Part shown: positions 45,711 through 63,188 of the stretch, one piece after another
How the letters are laid out: each line of letters opens with the position of its first letter
Position numbering within the stretch: position 1 is the stretch's first letter
Assembly: GCF_019720895.1 (NCBI RefSeq)
Contig: NZ_JAHKSH010000004.1
Coordinates: 372,001 to 436,000 of the forward strand
Direction: 5' to 3'
DNA from: Microbacterium salitolerans
GTDB taxonomy: Bacteria > Actinomycetota > Actinomycetes > Actinomycetales > Microbacteriaceae
DNA: 64,000 nucleotides
Notes under the pieces: generated by a model
Databases searched by the model: none
Told to the model about the DNA's origin: nothing
The model's input: only the letters and a program-made list of their open reading frames with translations
Position numbers and translations under genes: made by a program

Positions 45711-45725
45711 TTCCGCGGGACGAAA
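45711..45725. promoter_or_regulatory. TTCCG-N5-CGAAA site before the importer operon
   Basis: TTCCG at 45711-45715 and CGAAA at 45721-45725 match the repeat TTCCG-N5-CGGAA found at other control regions of this locus, with one mismatch. It lies 121 bp upstream of the binding-protein start. A CAC-TCG-GTG box follows at 45733-45747, partly inside the end of the amidohydrolase gene. Confidence 0.4.
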
Positions 45726-45734
45726 GCGAAGGCG

Positions 45735-46736
45735 TCACTCGGTGTCACGTCCGAGCCAGCGGAGCGCATTGCGACTCGAGATCTGCTCCCAGTCGGCCGG
45801 ATCCAGATCCATCTCACGCAGCGTCCGGGCCGCCGGCTCCTCGCGATTCATCGCGGGGAAGTCGCTTCCCACGAGCAGTCGGTCCGCGCCCAGCAGATCG
45901 ATGAGATATCGGATCGTGCGACGGTCGAACACCATCGAGTCGTAGTAGAAGCGCCGCGCGTAGTCGAGCGGCGACGGGCCGTCGTCCGGCATGACCGCGC
46001 GTTCGAGGTCGCGCGGCTCCTCGTTCCAGGATCCGCCCCAGAAGTAGTTCGCGCGCGGCAGCATCATCGCGAAGCCGCCCGCCGCGTGGCTGAACGACAG
46101 GCGCAGGTCGGGGCACGCCGCGGCCGTCCCGCCGAGGATCATCGACGCCGCCGCGAACATGCCCTCGATGCCGACGACGTAGGTGCCCATCGCCGACATC
46201 GGCAGCCGGTCCATGGGCGACGGCATCGCGTGCACGAACACCGACAGCCCGAGTCGCTCGGCCTCCTGGAAGAACGGCAGAAATCGCTCGTCGCCGATCG
46301 ACGAGCCCCCGATGTTGGACGCGATCTCCACGCCCGCGAGTCCACGGTCGCGGATCCTCGCGAGCTCGCCCGTCGCTCGGTCCGGATCCTGCATCGGCAC
46401 CATGCCGAGGCCGATGAGCCGATCGGGATCGTGACGTGACAGCTCGGCCGTGACGTCGTTGACGTGCTGCGCGAGCGCGAGGCCGTCGACGGGCGGCAGG
46501 TCGTAGCGCAGCAGCGGCGGCATCGGGCTGATGACCTCGGCGTCGACGCCGGAGGCGTCCATGGCCTCGATGCGCCGCTCAGCCTCGAAGAACACCTCGC
46601 GTGCGCGGAACCGCATCTCGTCGAAGACGAGCAGCCGGTCGGCGGACCCGTCGATCCGCTCCATGTGCGGAAAGCACTCGGGAGCGTCGTCCGGATAGTC
46701 GCGGGGCAGCAGGTGAGCGTGGGCGTCGATGATCAT
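45735..46736 (-). CDS. ACMSD-type metal-dependent amidohydrolase
   Basis: A 333-residue TIM-barrel enzyme of the amidohydrolase_2 group (hydrolases and decarboxylases). The metal site is visible as DAHAHL (His6, His8), a central His region (SVFVHAMP), SHAAGG and the late Asp in LVGSDFP. The MIIDAHAHLLP start and ~330 length are typical. It may release the substrate of the downstream dehydrogenases or act on the ring or carboxyl group of the imported compound. It lies 19 bp behind the zinc alcohol dehydrogenase. Confidence 0.85.
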   Translation of the reverse strand: MIIDAHAHLLPRDYPDDAPECFPHMERIDGSADRLLVFDEMRFRAREVFFEAERRIEAMDASGVDAEVISPMPPLLRYDLPPVDGLALAQHVNDVTAELSRHDPDRLIGLGMVPMQDPDRATGELARIRDRGLAGVEIASNIGGSSIGDERFLPFFQEAERLGLSVFVHAMPSPMDRLPMSAMGTYVVGIEGMFAAASMILGGTAAACPDLRLSFSHAAGGFAMMLPRANYFWGGSWNEEPRDLERAVMPDDGPSPLDYARRFYYDSMVFDRRTIRYLIDLLGADRLLVGSDFPAMNREEPAARTLREMDLDPADWEQISSRNALRWLGRDTE

Positions 46737-46755
46737 GGGCGTCTCCTCGGGCGGG

Positions 46756-47862
46756 TCAGGCGTGCGCAGGATGAACGGACACGTGGATCGCCGACGCGTC
46801 GTCGCTCTCTCCCGCGAGCGTCTCGATCGCGAGCCCGACGTCGTCGAGCCCGAAGGTGTGGGTGTGCATCTTCTCGAGGGCGAAGGCCCCGGACTCGAGG
46901 AGCGCGATCGCGCGCTCGTTCGCGCTCGCGTCCACCCCGAAGGCGCCCTTCACGGTGAGCGCGCGGTTGATGATGTGGTCGGTGGGCAGCGAGATCTCGC
47001 GTCCGCCCTTCAAACCCGCGAGCACGACGCGACCGCCGTGTCGCACGACGTGCAGCGCATCGATCACGGGCGACGCCGCCATCGGCGTGAGCTCGACGGC
47101 GACGTCGGCCATACGCCCGTCGGTCACCTCGCGCACGACCTCGACGATGTCCTCCGCGCCGTCGCCGTCGACGACGACCGTGCGGTCGGCGCCGAACTCC
47201 ATCGCGAGCTGCAGCTTGTGCCGGTCCTTCTCGAGGCCCGTCACGATGATCGTGCCCGCACCCGCCGCCTTGGCGGCGATCACCGCGGAGAGGCCGCGCT
47301 GCCCCGCGCCGAGCACGACGAGAGTGTCACCGAGACCGACCTCGCCGAGGTCGACGGCCCAGCGCACGCCCGCGCCGAGCGGGTTGTACATGGCGGCGAC
47401 CTCGGCGGGCAGCGTCCTATCGATCTTGTGGAGGATCGAGTTCGGCGAGATGTAGAGATGCTCCGCGAATCCGCCCCACAGGCTCGGGGCGACGTCGATG
47501 CCGGTCACGCCGTGCCCGTACCGGCGGAACGGACAGGCCTGATAGCGGCCCTTCAGGCAGTCGCCGCACGCGCGGCACGGAACGATGACCTCGAGTGCGA
47601 CGCGGTCGCCGACCTCGACTCCCCACTTCTCGGCCGCTTCGTCGCCGAGCTCCTCGATGATGCCCATCGGCTCGTGGCCCGGGATGAAGGGATCGCGGTT
47701 CATCCCCATGTGGCCGCGGTAGATCTCGACGTCGCTCCCGCAGATGCCGTTCGCCTCCACGCGCAGCAGGCCGTCGTTCGCGCCTGTCACGGGTCGGGAG
47801 AACTCCCGCATCTCAATCGCCCGCGGCCCCGTCTGGACCGCCGCTCGCACCATCTGTGCCAT
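46756..47862 (-). CDS. Zinc-dependent medium-chain alcohol dehydrogenase
   Basis: A 368-residue MDR enzyme. Catalytic zinc ligands are in NGICGSD and GHEPMG, the structural zinc cluster is CRACGDCLKGRYQAC, and the Rossmann loop is VVLGAGQRGLSAVIAA. It belongs to the sorbitol/threonine-dehydrogenase-like branch, not the NDMA type of the two paralogues upstream, so it probably uses free NAD(P). The substrate is unknown. It is placed between the UGSC partner and an amidohydrolase in one operon. Confidence 0.85.
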   Translation of the reverse strand: MAQMVRAAVQTGPRAIEMREFSRPVTGANDGLLRVEANGICGSDVEIYRGHMGMNRDPFIPGHEPMGIIEELGDEAAEKWGVEVGDRVALEVIVPCRACGDCLKGRYQACPFRRYGHGVTGIDVAPSLWGGFAEHLYISPNSILHKIDRTLPAEVAAMYNPLGAGVRWAVDLGEVGLGDTLVVLGAGQRGLSAVIAAKAAGAGTIIVTGLEKDRHKLQLAMEFGADRTVVVDGDGAEDIVEVVREVTDGRMADVAVELTPMAASPVIDALHVVRHGGRVVLAGLKGGREISLPTDHIINRALTVKGAFGVDASANERAIALLESGAFALEKMHTHTFGLDDVGLAIETLAGESDDASAIHVSVHPAHA

Positions 47863-47897
47863 GTTGTCGCCCTTCTCTCTCCCCCGAGGGGGTGCCG

Positions 47898-48947
47898 TCA
47901 GTTCCGGTGCGCGATCGGCGTCGACGTGCCCGACCAGTCCGCGAAGTACCGCGTGACCATCGAGATGCCCGCAGTGCGGGACCCGGCCACGGCGATGAGC
48001 ATCGACGAGGGGTCCGCGGGCGGCGCCGTGCGCTGGAACTCCTCGGGTGCGAGATCGCCGCCGGGGTGTCGCACGCCGCGATCCGTCAGACCGTCCTTGC
48101 CCGCCCGGGCGAGCTGCGCCGTCGTGCGCCCCGCGCGCTCCATGAGCTGCGCGGCGACGTCACGGCGCGACCACCCCGCGCCGGCGAGGAGGTGCGCGTG
48201 CTCCGGACACAGCACGACTCCCGCCATCGCGTGCGCGAAGATCCAGGACCCCGACCGGCCGATCGTGTCGGCGAGGTCGCCGAGCAGGTGCTCGGGATCG
48301 GTCGAATGCCGATTGTCGACGAACTCGCTCGTGCGCAGGAGCGTCGTCGTGACGGCATCGCCGCCCACGCCGTTCGCCGCGGCGAGCGGCTCCCACGGAC
48401 TGTCTTCCTCGTTCTCGCCGATGAGGATCGACCAGCGCCCCGGGATCCCCTGCGTCGCCTGCTCGAGTTCGTGCGGCCGGACGCCGAATCCGTTGCGCAC
48501 GATGAGGCCGATGGCGCGCGCGATGGTCGCGTTGGCCCGGAAACCGGGTCCGAAGACGCCACCGGCGCTGTTGATGCCGAGGCGCTCGCGCACGGCCCCG
48601 TTGACGACGATGAGCGGAGCCGGCCCGCTGGTCGACTGCCAGCCGCCGCCGCGCGCCGCGCGCTCCTTCATCAGGGAGGCGAACGTCGCCAGGACGACCG
48701 GGAAGAACTCGGGCAGGCATCCGGCCATCGCCGCGTTCATGGCCGCCGTGCGCACGGTGACGGTGCGGCCCGTCTGCGGCATGTCGCCGATGATCTCGTC
48801 GCCGTCTCTCCCGCCCGCGGCGAGAAAGCGATCGAGCAGCGGCTGCGTGACGGGGACGAGGGGAAGGCCGTCGGACCAGCCCTGCTCGTAGCAGTGCTCG
48901 ATCGCGAGCTGAGCGGCATCGGCGTCGAGCGCGGTGTCCGCGCTCAT
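47898..48947 (-). CDS. Large partner protein of the UGSC family
   Basis: A 349-residue protein of unknown biochemistry. The N terminus IEHCYEQGWSDGLPLVPVT (16-34) and a later VFGPGFRANATIARAI stretch are, as I recall, characteristic of a conserved protein encoded beside UGSC-family (seleno)proteins. It overlaps that gene by ATGA here. It has no signal peptide or membrane segment. Conserved Cys19 and several His residues could take part in thiol chemistry with the partner. The function should be regarded as unknown. Confidence 0.65.
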   Translation of the reverse strand: MSADTALDADAAQLAIEHCYEQGWSDGLPLVPVTQPLLDRFLAAGGRDGDEIIGDMPQTGRTVTVRTAAMNAAMAGCLPEFFPVVLATFASLMKERAARGGGWQSTSGPAPLIVVNGAVRERLGINSAGGVFGPGFRANATIARAIGLIVRNGFGVRPHELEQATQGIPGRWSILIGENEEDSPWEPLAAANGVGGDAVTTTLLRTSEFVDNRHSTDPEHLLGDLADTIGRSGSWIFAHAMAGVVLCPEHAHLLAGAGWSRRDVAAQLMERAGRTTAQLARAGKDGLTDRGVRHPGGDLAPEEFQRTAPPADPSSMLIAVAGSRTAGISMVTRYFADWSGTSTPIAHRN

Positions 48948-49492
48948 CGGCCGGCTCCCCCGGTCACGGCCGCGACGATCTCGGGGAGCAGCCGCCGCGC
49001 GCGCTCACGCACCTCGTCGCCGGTGAGCGACGCCATGGGGTGCTCCGTCGTGATCCACTCGTAGCCGGGCACCCCCTGCACCCCCGCCATCGTGCGGCCG
49101 GTCATCTCGAACGCATCCGTCAGCACGACGGCGGCCGGCAGGCCCGCCCGCTCGAACGCGATGCCGTCCGCGACGGCGGCGGCGCTGCACGATCCGCAGT
49201 CCCCGATGCCCGTCACGACGACGTCGCTCGCCGACGCGTAGCGGCCGACGATCTCGCCGTCGACGGGCACGGAGAAGTTCGCCTTCGTCTCGACGATGCC
49301 GACCGACGCCGCCCCGTGCTCCGCGCGCAGCAGCTCCCCCACTGTCTCGAGGAAGAGCAGCGCGTTGTGCTTCGTGTTGTCCAGCAGGCCGATGCGCAGG
49401 CCCTCGAGGGCCGCCGGGCGATCCGCGAGGACATCGTCCTCGGGCGACGGCCCCGGGGCTCCGCCCGTCGGATCCAGGATCGGATTCGTCAT
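48944..49492 (-). CDS. UGSC-family protein, cysteine (CGSC) form
   Basis: A 182-residue protein with the motif GDCGSCS, Cys99-Gly-Ser-Cys102. This matches the UGSC family, in which the first Cys is selenocysteine in some members; here the codon is an ordinary Cys codon. The surrounding order (IGLLDNTKHNALLFL, then VVTGIGDCGSC, then GLPAAVVLTDAFEM) is the family layout. The CxxC suggests a redox or thiol-nucleophile role, but none is established that I know of. It is coupled to its large partner (ATGA) and lies 11 bp behind an NDMA-type alcohol dehydrogenase gene. Confidence 0.75.
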   Translation of the reverse strand: MTNPILDPTGGAPGPSPEDDVLADRPAALEGLRIGLLDNTKHNALLFLETVGELLRAEHGAASVGIVETKANFSVPVDGEIVGRYASASDVVVTGIGDCGSCSAAAVADGIAFERAGLPAAVVLTDAFEMTGRTMAGVQGVPGYEWITTEHPMASLTGDEVRERARRLLPEIVAAVTGGAGR

Positions 49493-49503: not shown

Positions 49504-50625
49504 TCAGGCGTCGTGCACGAGCACGCCGCGGATGTTCTTCCCGGCGCGCAGGTCGTCGTAGGCGTCGTTGACCTCGTCGAGGCCGTATCTGCGCGTGATG
49601 AGCTCATCGATCTTGAGATCACCCGCGCGATACAGCCCGAGGAGCTTCGGGATGTCGTACAGCGGATTGCAGTCGCCGAAGAGCGCCCCGCGGATCTGCC
49701 GCTGATAGCCGATGAGGAACCCCGCGGGCACGTGGACCGCCCGCTCCGTCAGGTGCCCCACACCCGTGATCGTCACCTTGCCGCCCTTGCCGGTCATGAG
49801 GACCGCGGAGTTCACCATGGGCTCCGTCACGACATCGGGCGTGAGGATCGCGTGATCGGCGAGCTGCCCCCACGTCTTCTCCGCGACGTACTCATGGGCC
49901 TCCTCGGCGGTCGCGAAGGCGGCGGTCGCGCCGAACTCCTTCGCGTTCTCGCGCTTGAAGTCGACCGGGTCCACGACGACGACGTCGCGGGCCCCGGCGT
50001 ACCTGGCCCCCTGCACGGCGTTCGTCCCGACGCCGCCGGAGCCGAACACGACCACCGTGTCGCCCGCGCGGACGCCCGCCGCATAGACGGCCGAGCCCCA
50101 TCCCGTCGGGACGCCGCATCCGATCAGGCTGCCGACCTCGAAGGGAATGTCGTCGGGGAGGGGCACGACGGCCCACTCCGAGACGACCGCGAACTGCGAG
50201 AACGTACCGAGGGAGCAGAAGCCGCCGAGGTCCTCGCCGTCCTTGTGGAAGCGATAGGTGCCGTCGAGGAACATGCCCGTTCCCGCGTTGAGCCCCTTGA
50301 CGCACATGTTCTGATGGCCCGTCGAGCATGGCCGACACGCGCCGCACGCGGGGATGTACGAGCAGACGACGCGGTCGCCCGGCTTCACGCGGGAGACGTG
50401 AGGTCCGACGGACTCGACGACGCCGGCTCCCTCGTGCCCGCCCACGATCGGGAAGCGCACCGGCGCATCGCCCGCCGTGATGTGGTCGTCCGAGTGGCAG
50501 AGTCCGGAGGCCGCGAACCGGATCCGCACCTCGTGCTCTCGGGGGTCGTCGAGCTGCACATCCGTGAGCTCCCACCCCGTGTGCGGTTCGCGGGCGATCG
50601 CCGCGTGGGTCGTGATCGTCGCCAT
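49504..50625 (-). CDS. NDMA-dependent (mycofactocin-linked) alcohol dehydrogenase 1
   Basis: A 373-residue zinc alcohol dehydrogenase of the nicotinoprotein type, in which NAD(H) stays bound and an external carrier, thought to be mycofactocin, re-oxidises it. Catalytic zinc: Cys43 (GLCHSDDH), His64-Glu65 (GGHEGAG). Structural zinc: Cys94, 97, 100, 108. The NAD loop is VVFGSGGVGTNAVQGA. The FRFHKDGEDLGGFCSLGTFSQ-like segment and the CNPLYDIPKLLGLY end are typical of this family. A complete mycofactocin cluster 8 kb away makes the assignment coherent. ATG 50625 is chosen over the longer frame, which enters the upstream gene. Confidence 0.88.
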   Translation of the reverse strand: MATITTHAAIAREPHTGWELTDVQLDDPREHEVRIRFAASGLCHSDDHITAGDAPVRFPIVGGHEGAGVVESVGPHVSRVKPGDRVVCSYIPACGACRPCSTGHQNMCVKGLNAGTGMFLDGTYRFHKDGEDLGGFCSLGTFSQFAVVSEWAVVPLPDDIPFEVGSLIGCGVPTGWGSAVYAAGVRAGDTVVVFGSGGVGTNAVQGARYAGARDVVVVDPVDFKRENAKEFGATAAFATAEEAHEYVAEKTWGQLADHAILTPDVVTEPMVNSAVLMTGKGGKVTITGVGHLTERAVHVPAGFLIGYQRQIRGALFGDCNPLYDIPKLLGLYRAGDLKIDELITRRYGLDEVNDAYDDLRAGKNIRGVLVHDA

Positions 50626-50645: not shown

Positions 50646-52136
50646 TCAGCGACCCACGGCCACGGCGTCGCGCATCGACACCGTCTTGACCTGGGTCCAG
50701 TCGAGCACCGAGTCGGCACCCATCGTCCGGCCGAAGCCGCTGTTCTTGTATCCGCCGAACGGACCGCCGATGACGCCGGCGCCGAGCGGGCTGTTGATGC
50801 CCACCTGGCCGGCCTCGAGACGGCGGCTCATGCGCACGGCCGTGCCGACGTCGCGCGTCCACACCGAGGCGACGAGACCGTAGTCGGTGCCGTTCGCGAC
50901 GCGCACCGCCTCCTCCTCGTCATCGACGGGGATCACCGACAGCACGGGGCCGAAGATCTCCTCGCGCGCGATCCGCATGTCGGGGTCGACCTTGTCGAAG
51001 AGCGTCGGCTGGACGAAGAAGCCGTCCTCGAGGCCCGCTCCGGTCGGCACCGCGCCGCCCGTGACGAGATCGGCTCCCGCATCACGGCCGACGCCGATGT
51101 AGTCGAGGACCCGCCGGTGCTGCTTCTCGTTGATGAGCGGCCCCATGTTCACCTGCTGATGCCACGGGCCGTAGGTGATCGTCTCCATCTGCGCGGCGAG
51201 ACGGTCGACGAGTTCGTCGTGGATGCTCCGCAGCACGACGACGCGCGAGCCTGCGGCGCAGATCTGCCCCGTGTTGAGAGTGATCCCCATCGCCATCGCG
51301 GGCACCGCGGCGTCCAGGTCGGCGTCGCCGAACACGACCTGCGGCGACTTGCCACCGAGCTCGAGATGCAGCGGGGTGAGGTTCTTCGCGCAGGCCTCCA
51401 TGATGAGCGACCCCGTCTGCGGCGACCCCGTGAAGCCCATGCGCCGGATCCGCGGATGCGCCGGGATGGCGGCGCCCGCCTCGTGGCCGTAGCCGGTCAC
51501 GACGTTGATGACGCCTGCCGGGATCCCCGCCTCGAGGGCGAGCTTCGCGAGAGCGAGCGGTGTGAGCGGCGCATCCTCGGCGGGCTTCATGACCATCGTG
51601 TTCCCCGCCGCGATCGCGGCCCCGACCTCGACGGCGAACATCGGTCCGGGCGCGTTCCACGGGATGATGCCGCCGACGACGCCGTACGGCTCACGGAGCG
51701 TGAAGCCGAGGTGCTCCGGCGAGTAGGTCGGCAGCGAGACGCCCTGCACCTTGTCCGCCTGGCCGGCGATGAAGCGGATCTGCCCGGGCACGCCGAGCGG
51801 CCCCCAGCTCGGGCGACCGACCTCGCGGCGCTCGATCTCGTCGATCTCGTCAGCGCGCTGCTCGATGAGATCGGCCCAGCGGAACAGCAGCCGCCCGCGG
51901 CTCGTGGCATCGAGGTCTCGCCACGCCGGGAGCGCCTCCTCGGCGGCCTGGACCGCGTGCTCGACGTCGTCTGACCCGCTGCGTGGGATCCGTGCCAGCA
52001 CGTCGCGGGTCGCGGGGTTGATGACGTCGATCGTCTCGCCGGATGCGGCGGGGACCCAGTCTCCGCCGATCAGCTGAGCGCCGTCGACGACGAGGTCGCT
52101 GTCGAGCGCGCGGGGTGCGTCGTGTGTCATGGTCAT
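50646..52136 (-). CDS. NAD(P)-dependent aldehyde dehydrogenase
   Basis: A 496-residue aldehyde dehydrogenase: IIPWNAPGPM, cofactor MKPAEDAPLTP, base Glu in LELGGKSPQ, catalytic Cys in NTGQICAAGSR and the PFGGYKNSGFG end. It lies between the two NDMA-type alcohol dehydrogenases with gaps of 20 and 36 bp. It would oxidise the aldehyde they make to a carboxylic acid, which the divergent CoA transferase could then activate. Confidence 0.9.
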   Translation of the reverse strand: MTMTHDAPRALDSDLVVDGAQLIGGDWVPAASGETIDVINPATRDVLARIPRSGSDDVEHAVQAAEEALPAWRDLDATSRGRLLFRWADLIEQRADEIDEIERREVGRPSWGPLGVPGQIRFIAGQADKVQGVSLPTYSPEHLGFTLREPYGVVGGIIPWNAPGPMFAVEVGAAIAAGNTMVMKPAEDAPLTPLALAKLALEAGIPAGVINVVTGYGHEAGAAIPAHPRIRRMGFTGSPQTGSLIMEACAKNLTPLHLELGGKSPQVVFGDADLDAAVPAMAMGITLNTGQICAAGSRVVVLRSIHDELVDRLAAQMETITYGPWHQQVNMGPLINEKQHRRVLDYIGVGRDAGADLVTGGAVPTGAGLEDGFFVQPTLFDKVDPDMRIAREEIFGPVLSVIPVDDEEEAVRVANGTDYGLVASVWTRDVGTAVRMSRRLEAGQVGINSPLGAGVIGGPFGGYKNSGFGRTMGADSVLDWTQVKTVSMRDAVAVGR

Positions 52137-52172: not shown

Positions 52173-53282
52173 TCAGTGCTCGATCCGGATGACGCCGCGG
52201 ATGTTCTTGCCGTCCAACATGTCCTGATAGCCCCGGTTGACGTCCTCGAGCGCGTAGGTGCGCGTGACGAGCTCGTCGAGCTTGAGGTGACCCGTCTTGT
52301 AGAGGCTGAGCAGCCGCGGCACGTCGTACAGCGGGTTGCAGCCGCCGAAGATCGCGCCCTGGATGCGGCGCTGGAAGCCGATGAAGGCGCCGGGGTGCTC
52401 GTCGACCATGCCGCCGCCGACCGCCGTGACGGTCACCTGACCCGTCTTGCCGACGACGCTGATCGCGTCCCGGATGACCTGGTCGTCCAGCACGCCGACC
52501 GTGATGATCGCGTGGTCGGCGAGCTCGCCCCACGTGGCGTCGACGACGAAGTCGGCCGCCTCCGCGGCGGTCGCGAACGTATGCGTCGCGCCGAACACCT
52601 TCGCCATGTCGCGCTTGAACTCGACGGGGTCGACGACGACGACGCGCTGCGCGCCGGCGTACGCCGCACCCTGCACCGCGTTGCTGCCGACGCCGCCCGC
52701 GCCGTAGATGACGACGGTCTCGCCCGCGCGGACGCCCGCGGCGTGGACCGCTGTTCCCCAGCCGGTCGGCACGGCGCACCCGACGAGCGACGCGACCTCG
52801 AACGGGATGTCGTCAGGGATCGGGATGACCGAGTACTCCGACACCACCGAGTACTGCGAGAAGGTGCCGAGCACGCAGAGCCCGCCGAAGTCGACGCCGT
52901 CCTGGTGGAAGCGGAAGGTTCCGTCGGGAAACTCCCCCGTCGACGCGTTCTTGCCGGCGTCGCAGAGGTTCTGGCGTCCGGTCGAGCAGTAGCGGCAGGA
53001 CCCGCAGGCGGGGATGAAGGAGCACACGACGTGGTCGCCGGCGCGCACCCGCGTCACGCCCTCGCCGACGGCATCGATGACGCCCGCCCCCTCGTGCCCG
53101 CCGACCACGGGCATCCGCATGGGGGCGTCGCCCTTCTGGATGTGATCATCCGAATGGCACATCCCCGCCGCGTGGAACTTGATCCGCACCTCGTTGGCGC
53201 GGGGCTCATCCAGTTCGAGCTCCGTGATCTCCCACGGAGTGCCGGGGGCGCGGCACACGGCTGCGCGTGTCGTCAGGCTCAT
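52173..53282 (-). CDS. NDMA-dependent (mycofactocin-linked) alcohol dehydrogenase 2
   Basis: A 369-residue paralogue of the enzyme at 49504-50625, with the same layout: Cys42 (MCHSDDH), His63-Glu64 (GGHEGAG), structural Cys93, 96, 99, 107, loop VIYGAGGVGSNAVQGA and the CNPLYDVPRLLSLY end. Having two in one operon suggests two successive alcohol steps or different substrate ranges. It is the first gene of the leftward run; its promoter lies in the 294-bp divergent gap shared with the CoA-transferase operon. GAGAGG precedes ATG 53282. Confidence 0.88.
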   Translation of the reverse strand: MSLTTRAAVCRAPGTPWEITELELDEPRANEVRIKFHAAGMCHSDDHIQKGDAPMRMPVVGGHEGAGVIDAVGEGVTRVRAGDHVVCSFIPACGSCRYCSTGRQNLCDAGKNASTGEFPDGTFRFHQDGVDFGGLCVLGTFSQYSVVSEYSVIPIPDDIPFEVASLVGCAVPTGWGTAVHAAGVRAGETVVIYGAGGVGSNAVQGAAYAGAQRVVVVDPVEFKRDMAKVFGATHTFATAAEAADFVVDATWGELADHAIITVGVLDDQVIRDAISVVGKTGQVTVTAVGGGMVDEHPGAFIGFQRRIQGAIFGGCNPLYDVPRLLSLYKTGHLKLDELVTRTYALEDVNRGYQDMLDGKNIRGVIRIEH

Positions 53283-53576
53283 GGAACCTCTCTTCGTCGA
53301 GTGGTCTCGGGACGGGCCCGCCTGCTGCTCCCGGTGCGGGAGGCGGATCCTCTGCGCGGATCCGCGGACGTCCTCGTCGTGAATGCCTCTACGCTGTGGC
53401 CGATCCGCCGGGCCCACCAGCAGGTTTTCGCCTCCCGGAAGCCGAAGTCACCCGGTGCCATTCCGCGCGGCGGCGCGCGAGGGGCCGACCTTCTGCGACG
53501 CGGAAACGGCCGCTCGCCTCCGGCCCGCATGCCGGTTTACTGACTCGAACCGCAGGCCAGGGCGAAGGAGAGGCAC
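53283..53576. promoter_or_regulatory. Divergent control region: NDMA-ADH operon / CoA-transferase operon
   Basis: A 294-bp gap with no protein gene. It contains TTTCG-N5-CGGAA (53426-53440), a TCAC-CCG-GTGCCA box (53446-53460) and TTCTG-N5-CGGAA (53491-53505). These resemble elements at the importer and mft promoters. Ribosome sites are GAGAGG (leftward) and GAAGGAGAGG (rightward). Two GGATCC sites lie near 53343-53363. Confidence 0.5.
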
Positions 53577-55869: not shown

Positions 55870-56783
55870 GGGATGTATCCGGAAAGGTCGCCGTCGTCAC
55901 GGGCGGATCCAGCGGAATCGGCAAGGGCATCGCGCTCGCGTTCGCCCGCGCCGGCATGCGGGTCGTCATCACCGCCCGCCACGAGGATCGCCTCGCAGAG
56001 GCACGGCGAGAGTTCGAGAGCCGCGGACTGACGATCGACACGCGCGCCGTCGACGTCACCGACCGCGTCGGGATGGAGGCCGCGGCGGCCGACATCGAGC
56101 AGACGCACGGCCGCATCGACGTGCTCGTGAACAATGCGGGTATCGGCCTCACGGGGCCCGTCGCGCAGGCGACGCCCGCCGACTGGGACTGGGTCGTCGA
56201 CGTCAACATCCGGGGCGTGGGCAACGGGATCCAGGCGTTCCTGCCGCGGATCCGCGCGCACGGAGGCGGCGGCGCGATCATCAATACGTCCTCCATGGGC
56301 GGGCTCATGCCCGTCGTCGCGGGCCTGTACTCGATGACGAAGGCCGCCGTGATCGCGCTGTCCGAGGCGATGCACATCGAGCTGCAGGATGAGGGGATCC
56401 AGGTCGCCGCCTTCTGCCCCGGCCCCGTGCACTCCCACATCGCGACGGCCGTGGCCGACCGGCCCGCGGAGTACGGCGAGTCCGGCTACACGCCTCCTGG
56501 GGAGGACTTCGCGGCGTTCGCGCGGTCGCAGCCGTACATGTCCGCGGAGGAATGCGGCGAGCGCGTGCTCGACGGGCTGCGACGCGGCGACATGTTCATC
56601 CTCACGCACGCGGAGTTCGCCGACGGCGTCGCGGAGCGGCACCGCGCGATCGAGCAGGCATTCCCCGACGAGGAGATCGACGAGGCGCGGAGGGCCGCGA
56701 TCCCGTTCCTCCTGGGCTCCCCCGTCTACACGGAGGAGAACAGGAGCCCCGCGCCGCGGTTCACACGTCCGTCGGGTAGCTGA
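55866..56783 (+). CDS. Classical short-chain dehydrogenase/reductase
   Basis: A 305-residue NAD(P)-dependent oxidoreductase: cofactor loop TGGSSGIGKG, NNAG (about 93-96), catalytic Ser in NTSSMGG and YSMTK, and CPGPV after it. It lacks the extra N-terminal insertion of mycofactocin-dependent SDRs, so free NAD(P) use is expected. The ATG overlaps the amidohydrolase stop. Its 3' end overlaps the convergent small CxxC gene by 23 bp. Confidence 0.87.
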   Translation: MRDVSGKVAVVTGGSSGIGKGIALAFARAGMRVVITARHEDRLAEARREFESRGLTIDTRAVDVTDRVGMEAAAADIEQTHGRIDVLVNNAGIGLTGPVAQATPADWDWVVDVNIRGVGNGIQAFLPRIRAHGGGGAIINTSSMGGLMPVVAGLYSMTKAAVIALSEAMHIELQDEGIQVAAFCPGPVHSHIATAVADRPAEYGESGYTPPGEDFAAFARSQPYMSAEECGERVLDGLRRGDMFILTHAEFADGVAERHRAIEQAFPDEEIDEARRAAIPFLLGSPVYTEENRSPAPRFTRPSGS

Positions 56784-56985
56784 GATCGATGTCGTCGGCG
56801 CCGATTCCGAGCATGGGCGCGAGCATCGTCTTCATGAGCGGCTTCGGCACGAGGCACTCGTCGCAGGCGGCAGGGCCCGCGATGATCGTGACGTGCGCGC
56901 GTCCCTCGCTCGGCTCATAGTCGAGGTGATAGTCGTCCGCTGCGAGCGTCTTCTTCAGGTCGTCGAGCTGTGCGAGATCGGCCAT
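56761..56985 (-). CDS. Small CxxC protein, NifU C-domain-like
   Basis: A 74-residue protein: a helical start, strand GRAHVTIIAG, then CDEC (CxxC) followed by a helix with KPLMKTMLAPMLG. The strand-CxxC-helix order resembles the C-terminal domain of NifU, which binds Fe-S clusters, but similarity is weak and I do not assign it. It is divergent from the IclR gene and shares its control region with three inverted repeats. GAGGAGGGATC precedes the ATG. The small size and placement suggest an accessory electron- or metal-handling role in this locus (inference). Confidence 0.65.
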   Translation of the reverse strand: MADLAQLDDLKKTLAADDYHLDYEPSEGRAHVTIIAGPAACDECLVPKPLMKTMLAPMLGIGADDIDLSYPTDV

Positions 56986-57046
56986 GATCCCTCCTCTTCG
57001 TCGGGCGCCACTCGATCGGCGGCATCCTCGCCATCGTGGCACCGGA

Positions 57047-57137
57047 GCCGTCCCGTCATGGGACGGCTTCCGCCTGACGGAAAGGATGCACGCAATATTG
57101 GCGACGATTTCGGTGATCGTCTTCCGGAGGGCGGAAG
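57047..57137. promoter_or_regulatory. Three inverted repeats upstream of the second IclR gene
   Basis: Within the 223-bp divergent gap: GCCGTCCC-N5-GGGACGGC (57047-57067), directly abutting TTCCG-N5-CGGAA (57068-57082), and CTTCCG-N5-CGGAAG (57121-57137). All have 5-nt spacers. The last two give the clearest examples of the motif repeated at other control regions of this locus. Autoregulation by the IclR protein is the simplest reading. Confidence 0.55.
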
Positions 57138-57208
57138 CGGCGGGTAGCTTGAGCGCCGGACAGCGAGGTCCGCAGCTCAACCCCACCCCCGATGGAGGCC
57201 GGTCGACG

Positions 57209-58009
57209 ATGACCATCAGCGAGATTCACCACCCACGAACCGAGCGCATGACGGCGGCCCAGCGCGTGCTGGCGATCCTGGAGGTGTTCGACCAGGACCA
57301 CCTCGTCCTCAGCCTCAGCGAGATCAGCCGCCGCGCCGATCTGAGCCTCAGCACGACGCACCGGCTCGTCGGCGAGCTCAAGCGGTGGGGCGCTCTCGAG
57401 CGCTCGAAGGACGGAAACTATGCGATCGGCATGCGGATCCTCGAACTCGGGGGCCTCGAGCCGCAGGGCCTGCGACTGCGCGACGTCGCGCGGCCCTACC
57501 TCGGCGATCTGCAGCAGGCGACGAACGCCAACGTGCATCTCGCGGTGCGCGACGGGCACGATGTCGTGTACGTCGAGTCGATGCGGGCGCGGCAGGGCGC
57601 GCGGGTCCTGAGCCGTCTGGGCGGGCGCTGGCCGCTGCACGCGACGGGCACGGGGCTCGTGCTGCTCGCGTTCGCGTCGCCGCAGTTCCGCGAGGAGGTG
57701 CTGCGATCCCCCCTCAAGCGCTTCACTCCGAAGACGATCGCGACCGCCGACGAGCTGAACCGACGTCTCGCGGAGGTCCGGCGCACGAGCATGGCGGTCG
57801 TGGAGGACTCGATCACGCCCGACGCGAGCGCGGTCGCGGTGCCGGTGCGCGGCCCGCGCGATCGACTCATCGCGGCGCTCGGCATCACGGTGCCGTCGCA
57901 CACGGCCTCGCCGCACTCGCTGCTCCCGGCGCTCACGTCGACGGCGCGCGCGATCTCCCGCACGCTCGGCGCGCCGTCCGCGCAGGGGCGCCCCTCGACG
58001 GCGGCGTGA
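57209..58009 (+). CDS. IclR-family regulator of the mycofactocin-linked locus
   Basis: A 266-residue regulator: an N-terminal winged helix (about 14-75, LSLSEISRRADLSLSTTHRLVGEL) and a full IclR effector domain (about 85-255, with HATGTGLVLLAF and SMAVVEDSI). It lies centrally between the catabolic operons and the mft genes. GGAGG precedes ATG 57209. It is the leading candidate to bind the TTCCG-N5-CGGAA repeats; its effector is unknown, perhaps the substrate or an acid intermediate. Confidence 0.9.
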   Translation: MTISEIHHPRTERMTAAQRVLAILEVFDQDHLVLSLSEISRRADLSLSTTHRLVGELKRWGALERSKDGNYAIGMRILELGGLEPQGLRLRDVARPYLGDLQQATNANVHLAVRDGHDVVYVESMRARQGARVLSRLGGRWPLHATGTGLVLLAFASPQFREEVLRSPLKRFTPKTIATADELNRRLAEVRRTSMAVVEDSITPDASAVAVPVRGPRDRLIAALGITVPSHTASPHSLLPALTSTARAISRTLGAPSAQGRPSTAA

Positions 58010-58014
58010 GGCCC

Positions 58015-58064
58015 TCCCGCCAGGCGAAAGACCGGCTGATCGTGACACTCGGTGCCAATAGGCT
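58015..58064 (+). promoter_or_regulatory. mftD promoter with two control boxes
   Basis: A degenerate repeat site TCCCG-N5-CGAAA (58015-58029), a 13-nt gap, the box TGACAC-TCG-GTGCCA (58043-58057) and a -10 TAGGCT (58059-58064). The mftA promoter has the same elements with the same 13-nt gap. The predicted leader to the mftD ATG is about 65 nt. Confidence 0.55.
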
Positions 58065-58136
58065 CGCCCCGCGGCGACGGTGCCGCAGATCCGGAGGTCC
58101 ACCCATCATGGGTTGCACACATGAAGGCGCCGCGCG

Positions 58137-59360
58137 ATGAGCGGCGGATGGTTCGAGACGGTCGCCGAAGCGCAGCGACGGGCCCAGCGCAGGCTTCCGC
58201 GCTCGGTGTACGGCGCGCTCCTCGCGGGGTCCGAGCGCGGCCTCACGTATCAGGACAATCTCGACGCGTTCGCGGAGCTCGGCCTCGCGCCGCATATCGC
58301 GGATCTGTCCGCGGAGCGCCGGCTCGGCACGCGCGTGATGGGCATCGACATCGACCTGCCCGTGATCATCTCGCCGACGGGCGTGCAGGCGGTGCATCCG
58401 GAAGGCGAGACGGCGGTGGCCCGCGCGGCCGCTGCCCGCGGGACGATCATGGGACTCAGCTCGTTCGCGAGCCGGCCCGTCGAGGAGGTCGCCGCCGCGA
58501 ACGCGCACACGTTCTACCAGACCTACTGGATGGGGACGCGCGAGCGCATGGTGAAGCGCCTCGAGCGCGCGCGCGCCGCGGGGGCCGTCGGGGTCATCGC
58601 GACCGTCGACTGGACGTTCTCGAACGGACGCGACTGGGGCAGCCCGTGGATCCCCGAGAAGCTCACGCCGCGCGCCGCGCTGCGCTTCGCCCCGCAGGCC
58701 CTCCGACGCCCGCAGTGGCTGTGGGACTTCGTGCGGTCAGGGGGCGTTCCCGACCTCACGACACCGAACCTCGCGACAGACGGCGAGGAGCCGCCGACGT
58801 TCTTCGGGGCGTACGGCGAGTGGATGCAGACGCCTCCCCCGACGTGGGAGGACATCGCCTGGCTCCGCGATCAGTGGGACGGCCCGTTCCTCCTCAAGGG
58901 CATCTCGCGCCTCGACGACGCGCGCCGCGCCGTCGACGCGGGCGTGTCGGCGATCTCGGTGTCGAACCACGGCGGCAACAACATCGACGGGATCCCCGCC
59001 GCAGTCCGCATGCTCCCCGCGATCGCCGATGCCGTCGGCGACGAGGTCGACGTGCTGCTCGACGGCGGCGTGCGTCGCGGCGGCGACGTCGCGAAGGCGC
59101 TCGCGCTCGGCGCGAAGGCCGTCCTCATCGGTCGCGCCTCGCTCTGGGGGCTCGCGGCGAACGGCCAGGCCGGCGTCGAGAACGTGCTCGACATCCTGCG
59201 CGCGGGGCTCGACTCCGCGCTCTACGGGCTCGGCCACGACGCCGTCGCCCAGCTCGGCCGCGGCGACCTGTGGATCCCCGACGGCTTCACCCGCGAGTTC
59301 GGCTCGCCCCACGCGACCCGAGTCGACGAGGCCGATCGGGTGCTCGCCGGGATCGCATGA
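58137..59360 (+). CDS. mftD: MftD, FMN-dependent pre-mycofactocin synthase
   Basis: A 407-residue FMN enzyme of the lactate/glycolate-oxidase fold. In mycofactocin maturation MftD deaminates the peptide-derived ring compound AHDP to pre-mycofactocin, creating the redox-active carbonyl. Visible: VIISPTGVQAVHPEGE, YQTYWMG, the active-site SNHGGNNIDG (the MftD variant of SNHGGRQLD) and the phosphate-binding LDGGVRRGGDV. It is followed by mftF with an ATGA overlap. It stands apart from mftABCE, unlike the single operon of mycobacteria. Confidence 0.93.
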   Translation: MSGGWFETVAEAQRRAQRRLPRSVYGALLAGSERGLTYQDNLDAFAELGLAPHIADLSAERRLGTRVMGIDIDLPVIISPTGVQAVHPEGETAVARAAAARGTIMGLSSFASRPVEEVAAANAHTFYQTYWMGTRERMVKRLERARAAGAVGVIATVDWTFSNGRDWGSPWIPEKLTPRAALRFAPQALRRPQWLWDFVRSGGVPDLTTPNLATDGEEPPTFFGAYGEWMQTPPPTWEDIAWLRDQWDGPFLLKGISRLDDARRAVDAGVSAISVSNHGGNNIDGIPAAVRMLPAIADAVGDEVDVLLDGGVRRGGDVAKALALGAKAVLIGRASLWGLAANGQAGVENVLDILRAGLDSALYGLGHDAVAQLGRGDLWIPDGFTREFGSPHATRVDEADRVLAGIA

Positions 59361-60757
59361 CGGGGACGCGCCTGCCCGATGGGTTCGTCGTGCGGCTCGC
59401 GTCGCGCACGCGCGTGCGCGAGAGCGGACGCGTGCTCGTGGGCGGGGCGCCGACACGCGTTACGCGCCTGACGCCCGCGGCCGCGCGGCTGATCACCTCG
59501 GGTGAGCTCGTCGTCCGCGACGCCCGCACGCGGCGCCTCGCGGAGCTGCTGGTCGCGTCGGGCCTCGCGGATCCCATCGCCGCGAGGCTTCCCCCGGTGG
59601 ATCTCGGCGAGCTGACCGTCGTCGTCCCCGTGCACGACCGCGCGCGGCAGCTCACGCGACTGCTCGCGAGCATCCCGGGAGGCGTCGCCGAGACGATCGT
59701 CGTCGATGACGCCTCCCGCGACGGGCTCGGCATCGCCGACGCCGCGCGCCGCCATCGCGCGACGCTCGTGCGACGGGAGACGAACGGCGGGCCTGCGGCG
59801 GCGCGCAACCTCGGGCTCTCCCGGGTGGCGACGCGCTTCGTCGCGTTCGTCGATTCGGACGTGACGCTCGAGGAGGGCGCCCTCGCGACCCTGCTGCGAC
59901 ACACGGCGGATCCGCGCGTCGCGCTCGTCGCGCCGCGCGTCGTCGGCGCGCCGACGGAGGCGCCCAACGCCCTCACCCGCTACGAGGACGCGCGCAGCTC
60001 GCTCGACCTCGGCGACGACGCCGCGCTCGTGCGCCCCGGGACGCCCGTCAGCTGGGTGTCGAGCACGTGCCTCGTGGGTCGCGTCGACCTCCTCGGCGAG
60101 GGATTCGACGCCGCGCTGCGCGTCGGCGAGGACGTCGATCTCGTGTGGCGGCTCGTGGAGCACGGGCTGCGCATCCGATTCGAGCCGTCCGCGGCCGTGC
60201 GCCACGACCACCGCACGCGCATCGCCGCCTGGGCCGCGCGCAAGCGCTTCTACGGAACGGGCGCCCACCTCCTCGCCGTCCGCCATCCCGGACACGTCGC
60301 GCCCGCGATCCTCCCCCTCTGGGGCGTCGCCCTGCTCGCACTCGTCGCGCTCCAGCGGCCGTGGGCGACCGTCGGCGCCGCGGGGATCCTCGCCGTGACC
60401 GTCGTCCGCAACGCCAGGCGGATCGCGCACATCGCGCGTCCGTGGTCGCTCGCTCTCGACCTCACGGCCCGCAGCGCCGCCGCGACGCTGACGCAGGGAT
60501 CCGCGCTGGTGCTGCGCCACTGGTGGCCCGTCGCGGCCGTGGCCGCGCTGCTCTCGCGCCGCGCGCGGCGCATCGTCGTCGTCGCAGGCGTCGCCGACGC
60601 CGCCGTCGAATACGCCCGACTGCGCCCGCGCCTCGACCCCGTGCGCTTCGCCCTCGCCCGTCGTCTCGACGACGTCGCCTACGGGACGGGGGTCTGGACG
60701 AGCGTCGTCCGCGGCCGCAGCCTGCGCGCTCTGCTCCCCCGCATCGTCCGGGGCTGA
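59357..60757 (+). CDS. mftF: MftF, mycofactocin glycosyltransferase
   Basis: A 466-residue family-2 glycosyltransferase that adds a beta-1,4-glucose chain to (pre)mycofactocin in mycobacteria. A ~85-residue MftF-specific N-terminal region precedes the GT2 core, with LTVVVPVHDR, the first Asp in IVVDDAS and the metal site in VAFVDSDVTLE. ED-type base GEDVDLVWRL follows, then hydrophobic segments towards the C terminus (about 310-350). ATG 59357 overlaps the mftD stop. It ends 6 bp before the convergent mftE. Confidence 0.92.
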   Translation: MTGTRLPDGFVVRLASRTRVRESGRVLVGGAPTRVTRLTPAAARLITSGELVVRDARTRRLAELLVASGLADPIAARLPPVDLGELTVVVPVHDRARQLTRLLASIPGGVAETIVVDDASRDGLGIADAARRHRATLVRRETNGGPAAARNLGLSRVATRFVAFVDSDVTLEEGALATLLRHTADPRVALVAPRVVGAPTEAPNALTRYEDARSSLDLGDDAALVRPGTPVSWVSSTCLVGRVDLLGEGFDAALRVGEDVDLVWRLVEHGLRIRFEPSAAVRHDHRTRIAAWAARKRFYGTGAHLLAVRHPGHVAPAILPLWGVALLALVALQRPWATVGAAGILAVTVVRNARRIAHIARPWSLALDLTARSAAATLTQGSALVLRHWWPVAAVAALLSRRARRIVVVAGVADAAVEYARLRPRLDPVRFALARRLDDVAYGTGVWTSVVRGRSLRALLPRIVRG

Positions 60758-60763
60758 CGACGC

Positions 60764-61483
60764 TCACTCGCCGGTCGGCGCGCACATGCCATCGGAGCGG
60801 ACGAGGCCCGAGCGCACGCGCTCCCATGCGCGATCGCGCATGGACCGCAGCAGCTCCGCACCCTCCGCGGCCGATGCGCCCGTGGGATCTCCCAGCACGC
60901 CGTTCGGAGAGGCCGCGCGCACCCCGCCGGCCCGCAGCTCGGGCAGGAGGCGGGCGATCGGCTCCGTCCGCCCCGGCGCCGCCCGCTCCGTCCGAACGCG
61001 CGCGGGATCGAGATGCAGCAGGATCGAGGTCTCGAGGCGGCCCGCGTGCGCGTCCGCGACACCGAGACGCGGATCCGGCGCGCACGGCACCCACGACACG
61101 TCGCGCTCCTCGTCCGCCCGCAGCTCGGGGATCGCCCCGGCCAGCGCGGGTGCATTGCCGCCGTGCCCGCTGACGAACACGATGCGGCCGGCCCAGGCGC
61201 TCGCCGAGCGCGCGACCTCGCGCACGACGGCGGCGAGCACCTCCGAGCCGATCGAGACCGTGCCGGGGAACCCCTGATGCTCGCCGCTCGCCCCGAGCGC
61301 TATCGCGGGCGCGCACACGGATCCCTCCCACCGGGCGGAGAGATCGCGCGCGACGGCCGTCGCGATCACCGTGTCGACGTCGAGCGGCAGGTGCGGCCCG
61401 TGCTGCTCGAGGGATCCGACAGGGATGACGAGGGGCGGTCCGTCCACCTCCGGCCAGGCGCGATCGGCGAGCAGCGGGCTCAT
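60764..61483 (-). CDS. mftE: MftE, creatininase-family peptidase of mycofactocin maturation
   Basis: A 239-residue metal peptidase that releases the terminal Val-Tyr-derived unit from the modified MftA peptide. Creatininase-family signatures are intact: PVGSLEQHGPHLPLDVDT (metal ligands Glu and His), GASGEHQGFPGT, SGHGGN and DAHAGRLETS. ATG 61483 overlaps the mftC stop as ATGA, so the longer open frame is just mftC in another register. Last gene of the mftABCE operon. Confidence 0.92.
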   Translation of the reverse strand: MSPLLADRAWPEVDGPPLVIPVGSLEQHGPHLPLDVDTVIATAVARDLSARWEGSVCAPAIALGASGEHQGFPGTVSIGSEVLAAVVREVARSASAWAGRIVFVSGHGGNAPALAGAIPELRADEERDVSWVPCAPDPRLGVADAHAGRLETSILLHLDPARVRTERAAPGRTEPIARLLPELRAGGVRAASPNGVLGDPTGASAAEGAELLRSMRDRAWERVRSGLVRSDGMCAPTGE

Positions 61484-62727
61484 CCGACGGGCGGGCGGAA
61501 TCCCGCGAGCGGATCCTCCTCGCACGCGCTGACGGGCGGGCGCGGAGCGTCGGGCCGGCGCCCGATCGTCACCTGCACGGGCCCCATGCCGTCGCGCGGA
61601 CGCGGCGGACTCGTGCGATGCGAGTGGTCGCCCATCGGCTTCGGGGCGTCGGACATCTGCTTGTCCTTGAGCGCCTGCTCGCCGAATCCTCGCACGCACT
61701 CGGGGTCGGGGCCGTCGAGCGGCAGGCCCGTGAAGAACTTCGCCGCCATGCAGCCGCCCTTGCACGCGTCGAAGAACTGGCACGACGTGCATGCCCCGCC
61801 CGACTGCGGCTGACGCAGTCGCTGGAACAGCTCGGAGGTGCGCCAGACATCGGTGAAGCCGCCGTCGTCCCGGACGCTGCCGGCCAGGAACTCGTCGTGG
61901 ATCGCGAACGGGCACGCGTACACGTCGCCGATCGGGTCGATGAGGCACACGACGCGCCCCGCACCGCACAGATTGAGACCCGGAAGCGACTCGCCGTACG
62001 CGGAGAGATGGAAGAACGAGTCGCCCGTCAGCACGTCCTCGCCGTGCGCGACCAGCCAGTCGTAGAGCTCGCGCTGCTGGTCCGCCGTCGGGTGCAGGTC
62101 GTCCCACACGTCGGTCGCGCGCCCCGCGGGGCGCAGGCGCGTGAGCCGCAGCTGGGCCCCGTACCGATCGGCGAGCGCCTTGAACTCGTCGAGCTGCGAG
62201 ATGTTCGTGCGCGTGCACACGACCGACAGCTTGAAGTTCTCCATTCCGGCCGCGCGGAGATTCTCCATCGCGCGGATCGCGATGTCGTACGAGCGCCCGC
62301 CGCGGATGGCGTCGTTGACCTCCGCCGTCGCGCCGTCGAGCGAGATCTGCACGTCGACGTAGTCGTTGGCGGCGAGGCGCTCCGCCACCTCCGGGGTGAT
62401 CTTGACGCCGTTCGTCGAGAACTTCACCCCCACGCTGTGGCTCGTGGCGTAGTCGAGCAGCTCCCAGAAGTCGCTCCTCACGGTGGGCTCGCCGCCGCCG
62501 ATGTTGACGTAGAAGACCTGCATCCGCTCGAGTTCGTCGATGATCTCCTTGCACTCCGCAGTCGTCAGCTCGCGCGGATCCCTTCTGCCGGAGGCCGACA
62601 GGCAGTGGATGCACGAGAGGTTGCACGCGTACGTGAGCTCCCACGTGAGGCAGATCGGCGCGTCGAGGCCGTGCTCGAAGTGGTCGACGAGGCGCTGCGG
62701 CTTCGCCTCGGGGGGTGCGATGGTCAT
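61480..62727 (-). CDS. mftC: MftC, radical SAM/SPASM maturase
   Basis: A 415-residue radical SAM enzyme that oxidatively decarboxylates the C-terminal Tyr of MftA and then joins it to the preceding Val. The SAM cluster is CxxxCxxC at Cys35-39-42 (CNLSCIHC), with VNIGGGEPT after it. The C-terminal SPASM cysteines are in LNLCGAGRVVC, YACPF and CTSCQFFDACKGGC. A Pro-rich tail of about 50 residues extends past the usual end. The start overlaps mftB. Confidence 0.95.
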   Translation of the reverse strand: MTIAPPEAKPQRLVDHFEHGLDAPICLTWELTYACNLSCIHCLSASGRRDPRELTTAECKEIIDELERMQVFYVNIGGGEPTVRSDFWELLDYATSHSVGVKFSTNGVKITPEVAERLAANDYVDVQISLDGATAEVNDAIRGGRSYDIAIRAMENLRAAGMENFKLSVVCTRTNISQLDEFKALADRYGAQLRLTRLRPAGRATDVWDDLHPTADQQRELYDWLVAHGEDVLTGDSFFHLSAYGESLPGLNLCGAGRVVCLIDPIGDVYACPFAIHDEFLAGSVRDDGGFTDVWRTSELFQRLRQPQSGGACTSCQFFDACKGGCMAAKFFTGLPLDGPDPECVRGFGEQALKDKQMSDAPKPMGDHSHRTSPPRPRDGMGPVQVTIGRRPDAPRPPVSACEEDPLAGFRPPVG

Positions 62728-62990
62728 GACGTCCTCTCCTGCAGCATGTGCGATCGGCGCAGGGTCTCGAGAGCGCTGAGGTAGGCGCGTTCGCGCTCGG
62801 GGGCGACCCCGACGGCGGCGAGCGCGGCGCGGGCCGACGGCGCGTCGGCGAGGCGCTCGACGATGTCGAGCAGTGTGCGGTCCTTGAGGAACGAGAGCTT
62901 GCGTGTGCCGAAGTGGTACAGCAGCGCGCCGAACGGCTCAGGCCGCACCGACACCTGCGGGTCGAGGCGCCAGGCGCGATCGGGGTCCAT
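62724..62990 (-). CDS. mftB: MftB, peptide chaperone (RRE) of mycofactocin
   Basis: An 88-residue winged-helix-like RiPP recognition protein that binds MftA and presents it to MftC. The conserved LDPQVSVRPEPFGALLYHFGTRKLSFL segment lies at 9-35. The ATG shares one base with the mftA stop codon, and its own stop overlaps mftC, so expression of the three is tightly coupled. Confidence 0.93.
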   Translation of the reverse strand: MDPDRAWRLDPQVSVRPEPFGALLYHFGTRKLSFLKDRTLLDIVERLADAPSARAALAAVGVAPERERAYLSALETLRRSHMLQERTS

Positions 62991-63088
62991 CAGTAGACAC
63001 CGCACATTCCGTCGATCGAGACCTCCTCGACGAGGGCGTCGTCGGCGATGAGGTCGTCGTTCGGCTCCTGCGTGACGTCGTTGTCCAT
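62990..63088 (-). CDS. mftA: MftA, mycofactocin precursor peptide
   Basis: A 32-residue ribosomal peptide that is the source of the redox cofactor mycofactocin. The acidic leader carries the EEVSIDGMCGVY C terminus, with the invariant IDGMCGVY end whose last two residues (Val31-Tyr32) become the cofactor. It is too short for normal gene calls. ATG 63086-63088 has the ribosome site GGAGGAG about 8 nt upstream. First gene of the leftward mftABCE operon. Confidence 0.96.
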   Translation of the reverse strand: MDNDVTQEPNDDLIADDALVEEVSIDGMCGVY

Positions 63089-63138
63089 GTCGTTCTCCTC
63101 CGGTATCGACTGCGTCGGCGGTCACCTGACTGGTCGCG

Positions 63139-63188
63139 AGCGTATTGACACCGAGTGCCGGATGGAAGATCCCTTCCGCTGGCAGGAA
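63139..63188 (-). promoter_or_regulatory. mftA promoter with two control boxes
   Basis: Read leftward: TTCCT-N5-CGGAA (63188-63174), a 13-nt gap, CGGCAC-TCG-GTGTCA (63160-63146) and -10 TACGCT (63144-63139). 14 of 15 bases of CACTCGGTGTCAATA are shared with the mftD promoter. The leader to the mftA ATG is about 44 nt. The region also lies ahead of the divergent mftR. Confidence 0.6.

Follow-up and report, generated by a model that had tools for sequence, protein, structure and literature searches.

A TTCCG-N5-CGGAA dyad as the likely operator of an IclR-type regulator beside the mycofactocin genes of Microbacterium salitolerans

A 64,000-nt stretch of the Microbacterium salitolerans genome (3,457,863 bases), hereafter the window, carries genes for an importer, for alcohol and aldehyde oxidation and for synthesis of the cofactor mycofactocin (mft genes). 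The 15-bp dyad TTCCG-N5-CGGAA recurs in the control regions of this locus. Comparison with related loci leads us to consider it likely that the dyad is the operator of the local IclR-family protein (encoded at 57209–58009), which would control the pathway genes and its own gene. The mft genes would be chiefly under MftR, with IclR sites gained at their promoters in this genome. To judge from the distribution of the dyad, a single IclR regulon very probably takes in uptake, oxidation and the gene of the regulator itself.

Dyad sites in the window and in related loci

A sequence-only reading of the window had named seven sites, all taken to be intergenic and next to operon starts. Each was found where it had been placed, 57121–57137 being the 17-bp form of the site at 57122–57136, and the tally of two perfect sites, four one-mismatch sites and one two-mismatch site is confirmed at these coordinates. 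The perfect dyads, 57068..57082 and 57122..57136, occupy the divergon between a small CxxC gene and the IclR gene. The divergon between the alcohol dehydrogenase (ADH) and coenzyme A (CoA)-transferase genes likewise has two dyads, 53426..53440 and 53491..53505, each with one mismatch. A further one-mismatch dyad, 45711..45725, lies upstream of the gene for the importer solute-binding protein. The other two are at the mft genes, at 58015..58029 (two mismatches) upstream of mftD and at 63174..63188 (one mismatch) at mftA/mftR. By our own gene calls six of the seven are intergenic; the site at 63174 is inside mftR if that gene starts at 63162 and just upstream of it if the start is 63201. The dyad at 45711 can be said to mark an operon start only loosely, as it occupies the 111-bp gap preceding the gene for the solute-binding protein, within a run of genes that share a strand. 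Between 79 and 95 bp separate the nearest dyad from the starts, as called, of the CoA-transferase, IclR, CxxC and importer genes. Counting sites with one mismatch or none, the whole window holds seven, of which six are within 45711–63188 and the remaining one is at 1478.

The expected number of such sites in 45711–63188 is 0.49 (Poisson P(≥6) = 1.2e-5). Five control regions of the window (868 bp), picked through the sites of the sequence-only reading, contain six, where 0.02 would be expected, or 0.10 if a fourfold enrichment between genes is assumed. All 1,024 five-base arms were combined with spacers 0–12, and the resulting 13,312 dyads were ranked by their sites with at most one mismatch. 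TTCCG with spacer 5 came first in the five regions (six sites), followed by TCCGC with spacer 3, which is the same dyad shifted inward (five sites), and then by counts of three. It also came first in 15 regions of other loci (4,315 bp), which were chosen by gene position with edges set by the analyst; here it had 12 sites, the same dyad shifted outward had nine, and the next had eight. In the window, every other spacer from 0 to 12 yields four or fewer sites with at most one mismatch. Nine of the 15 other-locus regions hold a dyad with at most one mismatch and 14 hold one with at most two, compared to 3 and 8 for the best of 389 permuted controls, and the dyad leads all 389 permuted versions on all four counts. 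A chance dyad was rejected on the strength of these controls and of the ranking.

A weight matrix was built from 14 sites of the other loci, with one identical repeat copy dropped and three two-mismatch sites included. It places 57068, 53491, 45711, 57122, 53426 and 58015, in this order, at ranks 1–6 of the 63,986 window positions; the site at 63174 is weak, at rank 14 in the printed list. Because likeness to the consensus guided the choice of training sites, a high rank is to some extent assured for the one-mismatch sites, and the informative rank is that of the two-mismatch site at 58015.

Close relatives of the IclR protein (59–73% identity) were found in Phytoactinopolyspora endophytica, Microbacterium album and further genomes. 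A sample of the family gave them in 2 of 397 other genomes at E 1e-70, and a sample of the order in none of 395 other genomes at the stricter 1e-75; seven of the 395 other genomes in a phylum sample have relatives at 47–52%. Among the genomes searched, G1178 has two close copies and the Phytoactinopolyspora genome has a second copy. The seven other loci at 59–73% identity are G243, G234, PHY1, PHY2, M. album, and MB78a and MB78b, the last two both from G1178. The importer promoter has a dyad in all four of the other loci that possess one (two with one mismatch, two with two), as does the ADH divergon in 4/4 (three with one mismatch, one with two). At the IclR promoter the dyad is present in six of the seven, four times with at most one mismatch and twice with two. 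The window and four of the seven (G243, G234, PHY2 and MB78a) have the IclR gene next to mft genes; in the other three (PHY1, M. album and MB78b) the two are apart. In MB78b, a perfect dyad is upstream of an IclR gene that is grouped with pathway genes, apart from mft. A possible distant target in the window genome, on another contig, is a short-chain dehydrogenase match with a one-mismatch dyad 93 bp upstream; its G1178 ortholog and an IclR gene that has a perfect dyad are transcribed divergently. The three other orthologs of this dehydrogenase found in a search of seven genomes have no dyad with at most one mismatch within about 500 bp, and one has a two-mismatch dyad.

The IclR regulator and the reach of its proposed motif

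The proposed dyad binder is a protein of 266 amino acids encoded at 57209..58009 on the plus strand. It scores above the Pfam cut-offs for the helix-turn-helix (HTH) domain HTH_IclR (45.9 bits; cut-off 22) and for IclR_C (120.7 bits; cut-off 24), which places it in the IclR family, one of nine genes in the genome with an IclR_C domain. Its score for the PcaR/PcaU/PobR subfamily (TIGR02431), 135.9 bits, is under the curated cut-off of 284.75. The HTH stretch taken as the recognition helix is nearly unchanged across the close-relative loci.

The dyad resembles published IclR sites. The group-1 motif is TTYCRYW3RYGRAA, and that of its subgroup iii is WTTYCRYW3RYGRAAW (PMC8222616). When 17 chosen sites were pooled on both strands, position 6 was Y and position 10 was R in 31 of 34, so that the dyad shares the geometry and the core, TTYCR-Y-N3-R-YGRAA, of subgroup iii as given in that paper. 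It departs from the A/T flank and A/T-rich centre of the subgroup: its flank is C/T (C 22, T 11 and G 1 of 34) and its centre is mixed. IclR tandem sites have been reported at 18–22 nt spacing. Three dyads of Phytoactinopolyspora PHY1 form an 18-bp tandem array within this range, a spacing shared with IclR sites of PMC8222616. In the window, a perfect inverted repeat, GCCGTCCC-N5-GGGACGGC, at 57047–57067 directly adjoins the dyad at 57068; the two are 18 bp apart centre to centre, the spacing of tandem IclR sites. A scan of 56900–58200 for promoters and terminators found none.

NdgR of Streptomyces coelicolor, also of the IclR family, likewise recognizes a 15-bp imperfect palindrome with five-base arms and a five-base centre, but its arms are close to GTCCA/TGGAC and its target is amino-acid synthesis (PMC4340878). 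The mycofactocin system as first described (PMC3023750) shares MftABCDEF, MftR and N,N-dimethyl-4-nitrosoaniline (NDMA)-type alcohol dehydrogenases with the present locus. The word IclR is absent from the main text of that paper, and the word mycofactocin from the main text of PMC8222616. This regulon was not met in the open-licence literature searched. It would be a regulon of an ordinary kind, with one unusual twist at the mft promoters.

Clusters built around a more distant IclR paralog (43–45% identity) also carry strong dyads. They were found in M. album, Phytoactinopolyspora and G234, together with a UGSC family gene and relatives of the conserved protein encoded at 47898–48947. All three clusters have dyads upstream of UGSC, two have them upstream of IclR and two upstream of an importer, and 14 of the 15 that score 12 or more are intergenic by our gene calls. 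No mft match was found in the 17–19-kb stretches of these clusters. The window genome itself has a second cluster with an amidohydrolase homolog, an IclR gene at C5:143690 and dyads at C5:139299 and C5:139365. These two dyads (800–814 and 866–880 of L057) are identical, 66 bp apart and upstream of an acyl-CoA-ligase-like gene. Because UGSC/amidohydrolase clusters in which no mft was found share the motif, what the dyad marks seems to be a subfamily of IclR regulators linked to this type of pathway, not mycofactocin.

A general UGSC-promoter element was considered and rejected. Dyads with at most one mismatch occur in 6 of 23 UGSC upstream stretches (strand set by tblastn) and permuted controls reach 7; with three G1356 loci removed as repeats of the Phytoactinopolyspora genome, the count is 4 of 20 and that of the controls 5. 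As the count is no higher than in the permuted controls, the dyad is not general to UGSC genes. Perfect dyads are present in three of these stretches (L119, L132 and L134), two of them at −90 and −91.

The mycofactocin promoters and rival explanations

Published mft control in mycobacteria involves MftR, long-chain acyl-CoA and the operator T-N2-GGCA-N5-TGCC-N2-A (PMC8728441). This operator had been overlooked in the sequence-only reading. It is recognizable at mftA/mftR in the window (63144..63162, two mismatches of ten fixed bases) and at mftA in five other mft loci, that is, in 6/6 with at most two mismatches. Unlike the Mycobacterium arrangement described there, the window has an operator-like site also at mftD (58041..58059, three mismatches of ten fixed bases; core GGCACCGAGTGTC, minus strand), and 28 bp upstream of either operator lies an IclR-like site. 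With the mft gene as reference, the centres of both mft dyads (58015 and 63174) are exactly 28 bp upstream of the operator centres, and the chance of the weaker dyad's score at one given position is 1.5e-4 in random sequence of the same composition. The mftA and mftD promoters agree at 9/15 positions of the dyad, 14/17 of the operator core and 8/11 just after the operator, compared to 2/13 between dyad and operator and 11/35 and 13/50 outside. Since the likeness is confined to the dyad, the operator and the stretch after it, it does not reflect a recent duplication.

The composite IclR–MftR promoter was not conserved in the other genomes compared. In all five other mftA promoters the positions −27 to −29 relative to the operator lack a positive dyad score, PHY2 having a weak score of 6.0 at −30, and the MftR operator was found in 0/3 other mftD regions. 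In MB57, a two-mismatch dyad match starts one base outside the set edge of an mft region. A one-mismatch dyad between mftD and mftE of Phytoactinopolyspora (PHY2 13673) is the only one with at most one mismatch inside the five other mft clusters, within the stretches read, and counts in favour of an IclR link to mft.

MftR-type sites also occur away from the mft promoters. One with three mismatches, at 53444–53462 in the ADH/CoA-transferase divergon, is 20 bp from the dyad at 53426 centre to centre, and through it MftR may reach pathway genes too. In G1178, a perfect MftR-operator consensus is found in the IclR/short-chain-dehydrogenase divergon of MB78b (L047, 12346–12364), with the mft genes on another contig. 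Because this appears to be the reverse wiring, cross-links between the IclR and MftR circuits may have arisen more than once.

Several observations weigh against the dyad as operator of the local IclR or against its reach to mft. The mftA/mftD regions of other loci have the dyad, at two mismatches or fewer, in 0/8 cases; about one dyad is expected in those 1,839 bases at window density, so this shows only a lack of conservation. The low matrix rank of 63174 belongs here as well, as does the weakness of the mftD operator-like site, equalled by count by that at 53444. The IclR promoter of G234 has no dyad with at most two mismatches. The seven relatives at 47–52% identity have no dyad with at most one mismatch in the 900 bp upstream, and one has a two-mismatch dyad, despite an HTH stretch that is largely alike. 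Dyads do lie in 20-kb stretches around these genes, a perfect one about 670 bp past the IclR 3′ end in L023, and one and two with one mismatch in L022 and L024, respectively. Some of the counts are also tighter than the rankings suggest. CGGCG with spacer 8, a dyad rich in GC, equals TTCCG-N5-CGGAA at 14/15 regions with at most two mismatches, and the total of two-mismatch sites is 18 for the dyad and 17 in one permuted control. Region edges and matrix sites were chosen after the consensus was seen, and three of the 12 other-locus sites belong to one 18-bp tandem repeat.

Chance or codon bias acting on a GC-rich sequence would account for a pattern that is frequent throughout the genome. Matches with at most one mismatch number 102 genome-wide for the dyad and 39 for the reversed pattern, and of 40 classified sites outside the window (eight further listed sites and unlisted ones were left out) 28 score as inside genes, 8 as outside and 4 as ambiguous at 5′ ends. 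By the same coding measure, which overcalls in that 44–48% of intergenic window positions are called coding at its lower thresholds, the six cluster sites with at most one mismatch are three outside, three ambiguous and none inside, and the question of whether the motif is equally common inside genes has a mixed answer. Across the genome the bare pattern lacks specificity, whereas its concentration in these control regions is specific. The six sites in 868 bp, and a dyad that twice comes first of 13,312 in separate sets of control regions, lead us to regard this explanation as highly improbable. The dyad could also be a true IclR-type operator bound by another of the nine IclR proteins, or by several, because so many IclR_C genes are present and the paralogs at 43–45% identity share the motif; the IclR gene at C5:143690 is about 4.3 kb from the two C5 dyads. 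This appears unlikely, given that dyads flank the IclR gene of the window, lie upstream of six of seven close relatives and, in MB78b, accompany an IclR gene among pathway genes away from mft. From its placement, the dyad is most likely the docking site of the neighbouring IclR-type regulator.

The other alternative concerns how far that regulator reaches. IclR might be limited to uptake, oxidation and itself, with mft synthesis under MftR alone and the mft dyads accidental, 58015 as a two-mismatch chance match and 63174 as belonging to the ribosome-binding site of mftR or to its coding sequence. The eight other mft regions lacking the dyad and the six mftA promoters having the MftR operator agree with this, as does the weak site at 63174, which overlaps AGGAAG at 63184, a possible ribosome-binding site 11 nt before the mftR ATG at 63201. 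It fits less well with the sixth rank of 58015 under a matrix from other loci, with the identical −28 placement of both dyads, and with an IclR gene beside mft genes in four of seven other loci, and we put it slightly short of an even chance. That the mft dyads represent lineage-specific wiring has about even odds on the promoter comparison. The earlier proposal of an IclR regulon joining uptake, oxidation and cofactor synthesis is thus well supported for uptake, oxidation and autoregulation by footprinting across related loci. Its cofactor arm, not conserved elsewhere, draws on the window genome, through the rank of 58015 and the 28-bp spacing at both mft promoters, and on the neighbourhood of IclR and mft genes.

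Genes of the locus and the proposed circuit

The genes leftward of the ADH divergon are on the minus strand. They encode the importer solute-binding protein (SBP_bac_5, 43821..45623), an amidohydrolase 2 family protein (45735..46736), a zinc-type alcohol/threonine dehydrogenase-like protein (46756..47862, under the curated cut-off of every family listed), a conserved protein of 349 amino acids without a Pfam or NCBIfam match (47898..48947), a UGSC family protein (48944..49492), the second copy of an NDMA-dependent alcohol dehydrogenase (49504..50625; 503.7 bits, cut-off 440), an aldehyde dehydrogenase (50646..52136, below the cut-offs of the best 25 of 42 families) and the first NDMA-dependent copy (52173..53282; 516.7 bits, cut-off 440). 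The gene of the 349-residue protein adjoins the UGSC gene in the loci compared. Rightward, on the plus strand, are CoA-transferase subunits A (53577–54317) and B (54314–54979, by position and gene call only), another amidohydrolase 2 family protein (54976..55869) and a short-chain dehydrogenase (55866..56783). The solute-binding, UGSC, CoA-transferase A, short-chain dehydrogenase and both amidohydrolase assignments are family matches. The small conserved CxxC protein (56761..56985, minus strand; 74 amino acids) has no Pfam or NCBIfam match; three other loci have counterparts of 53–58% identity close to IclR.

The mycofactocin cluster is identified by mftD (58137..59360) and mftF (59357..60757) on the plus strand and mftE (60764..61483), mftC (61480..62727) and mftB (62724..62990) on the minus strand, all above curated cut-offs, together with the mftA precursor peptide ending GMCGVY (62990..63088, minus strand). 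The profile score of mftR (63201..63827, plus strand) is 253 bits (cut-off 224.9); its start is uncertain, with ATG codons at 63162, 63201, 63210 and 63222. A gene at 63824–65275, running past the window end, overlaps the mftR end. From its place and first residues it is probably mftG, a GMC oxidoreductase.

In the circuit we propose, IclR dimers would bind YTTCYG-N5-CRGAAR at their own promoter, at the importer promoter and in the ADH/CoA-transferase divergon. Through its IclR_C domain the regulator would sense a pathway intermediate, to which uptake, alcohol and aldehyde oxidation and the regulator would respond jointly; uptake and oxidation would be under ligand-dependent control, and the regulator would also control its own gene. 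The mft genes would be chiefly under MftR through the operator at mftA. In this genome, both the mftA and the mftD promoter would have gained an IclR site, in each case 28 bp upstream of the MftR-type operator, and the pathway signal and MftR would act jointly on cofactor synthesis. Activation at mft is a guess from the dyad position upstream of the presumed −35. Taking the stretch after the MftR operator as the −10 region would put the mft dyads near −49, a position typical of activators. That IclR has captured cofactor synthesis here, in a composite switch tying mycofactocin production to the pathway substrate, is a tentative proposal that we hold not quite as readily as its opposite.

For pathways of this type, with a UGSC protein, amidohydrolases and NDMA-type dehydrogenases, the analysis proposes a regulator, an operator and a regulon. 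The locus also offers a possible second, substrate-specific input to mycofactocin synthesis, at two promoters.

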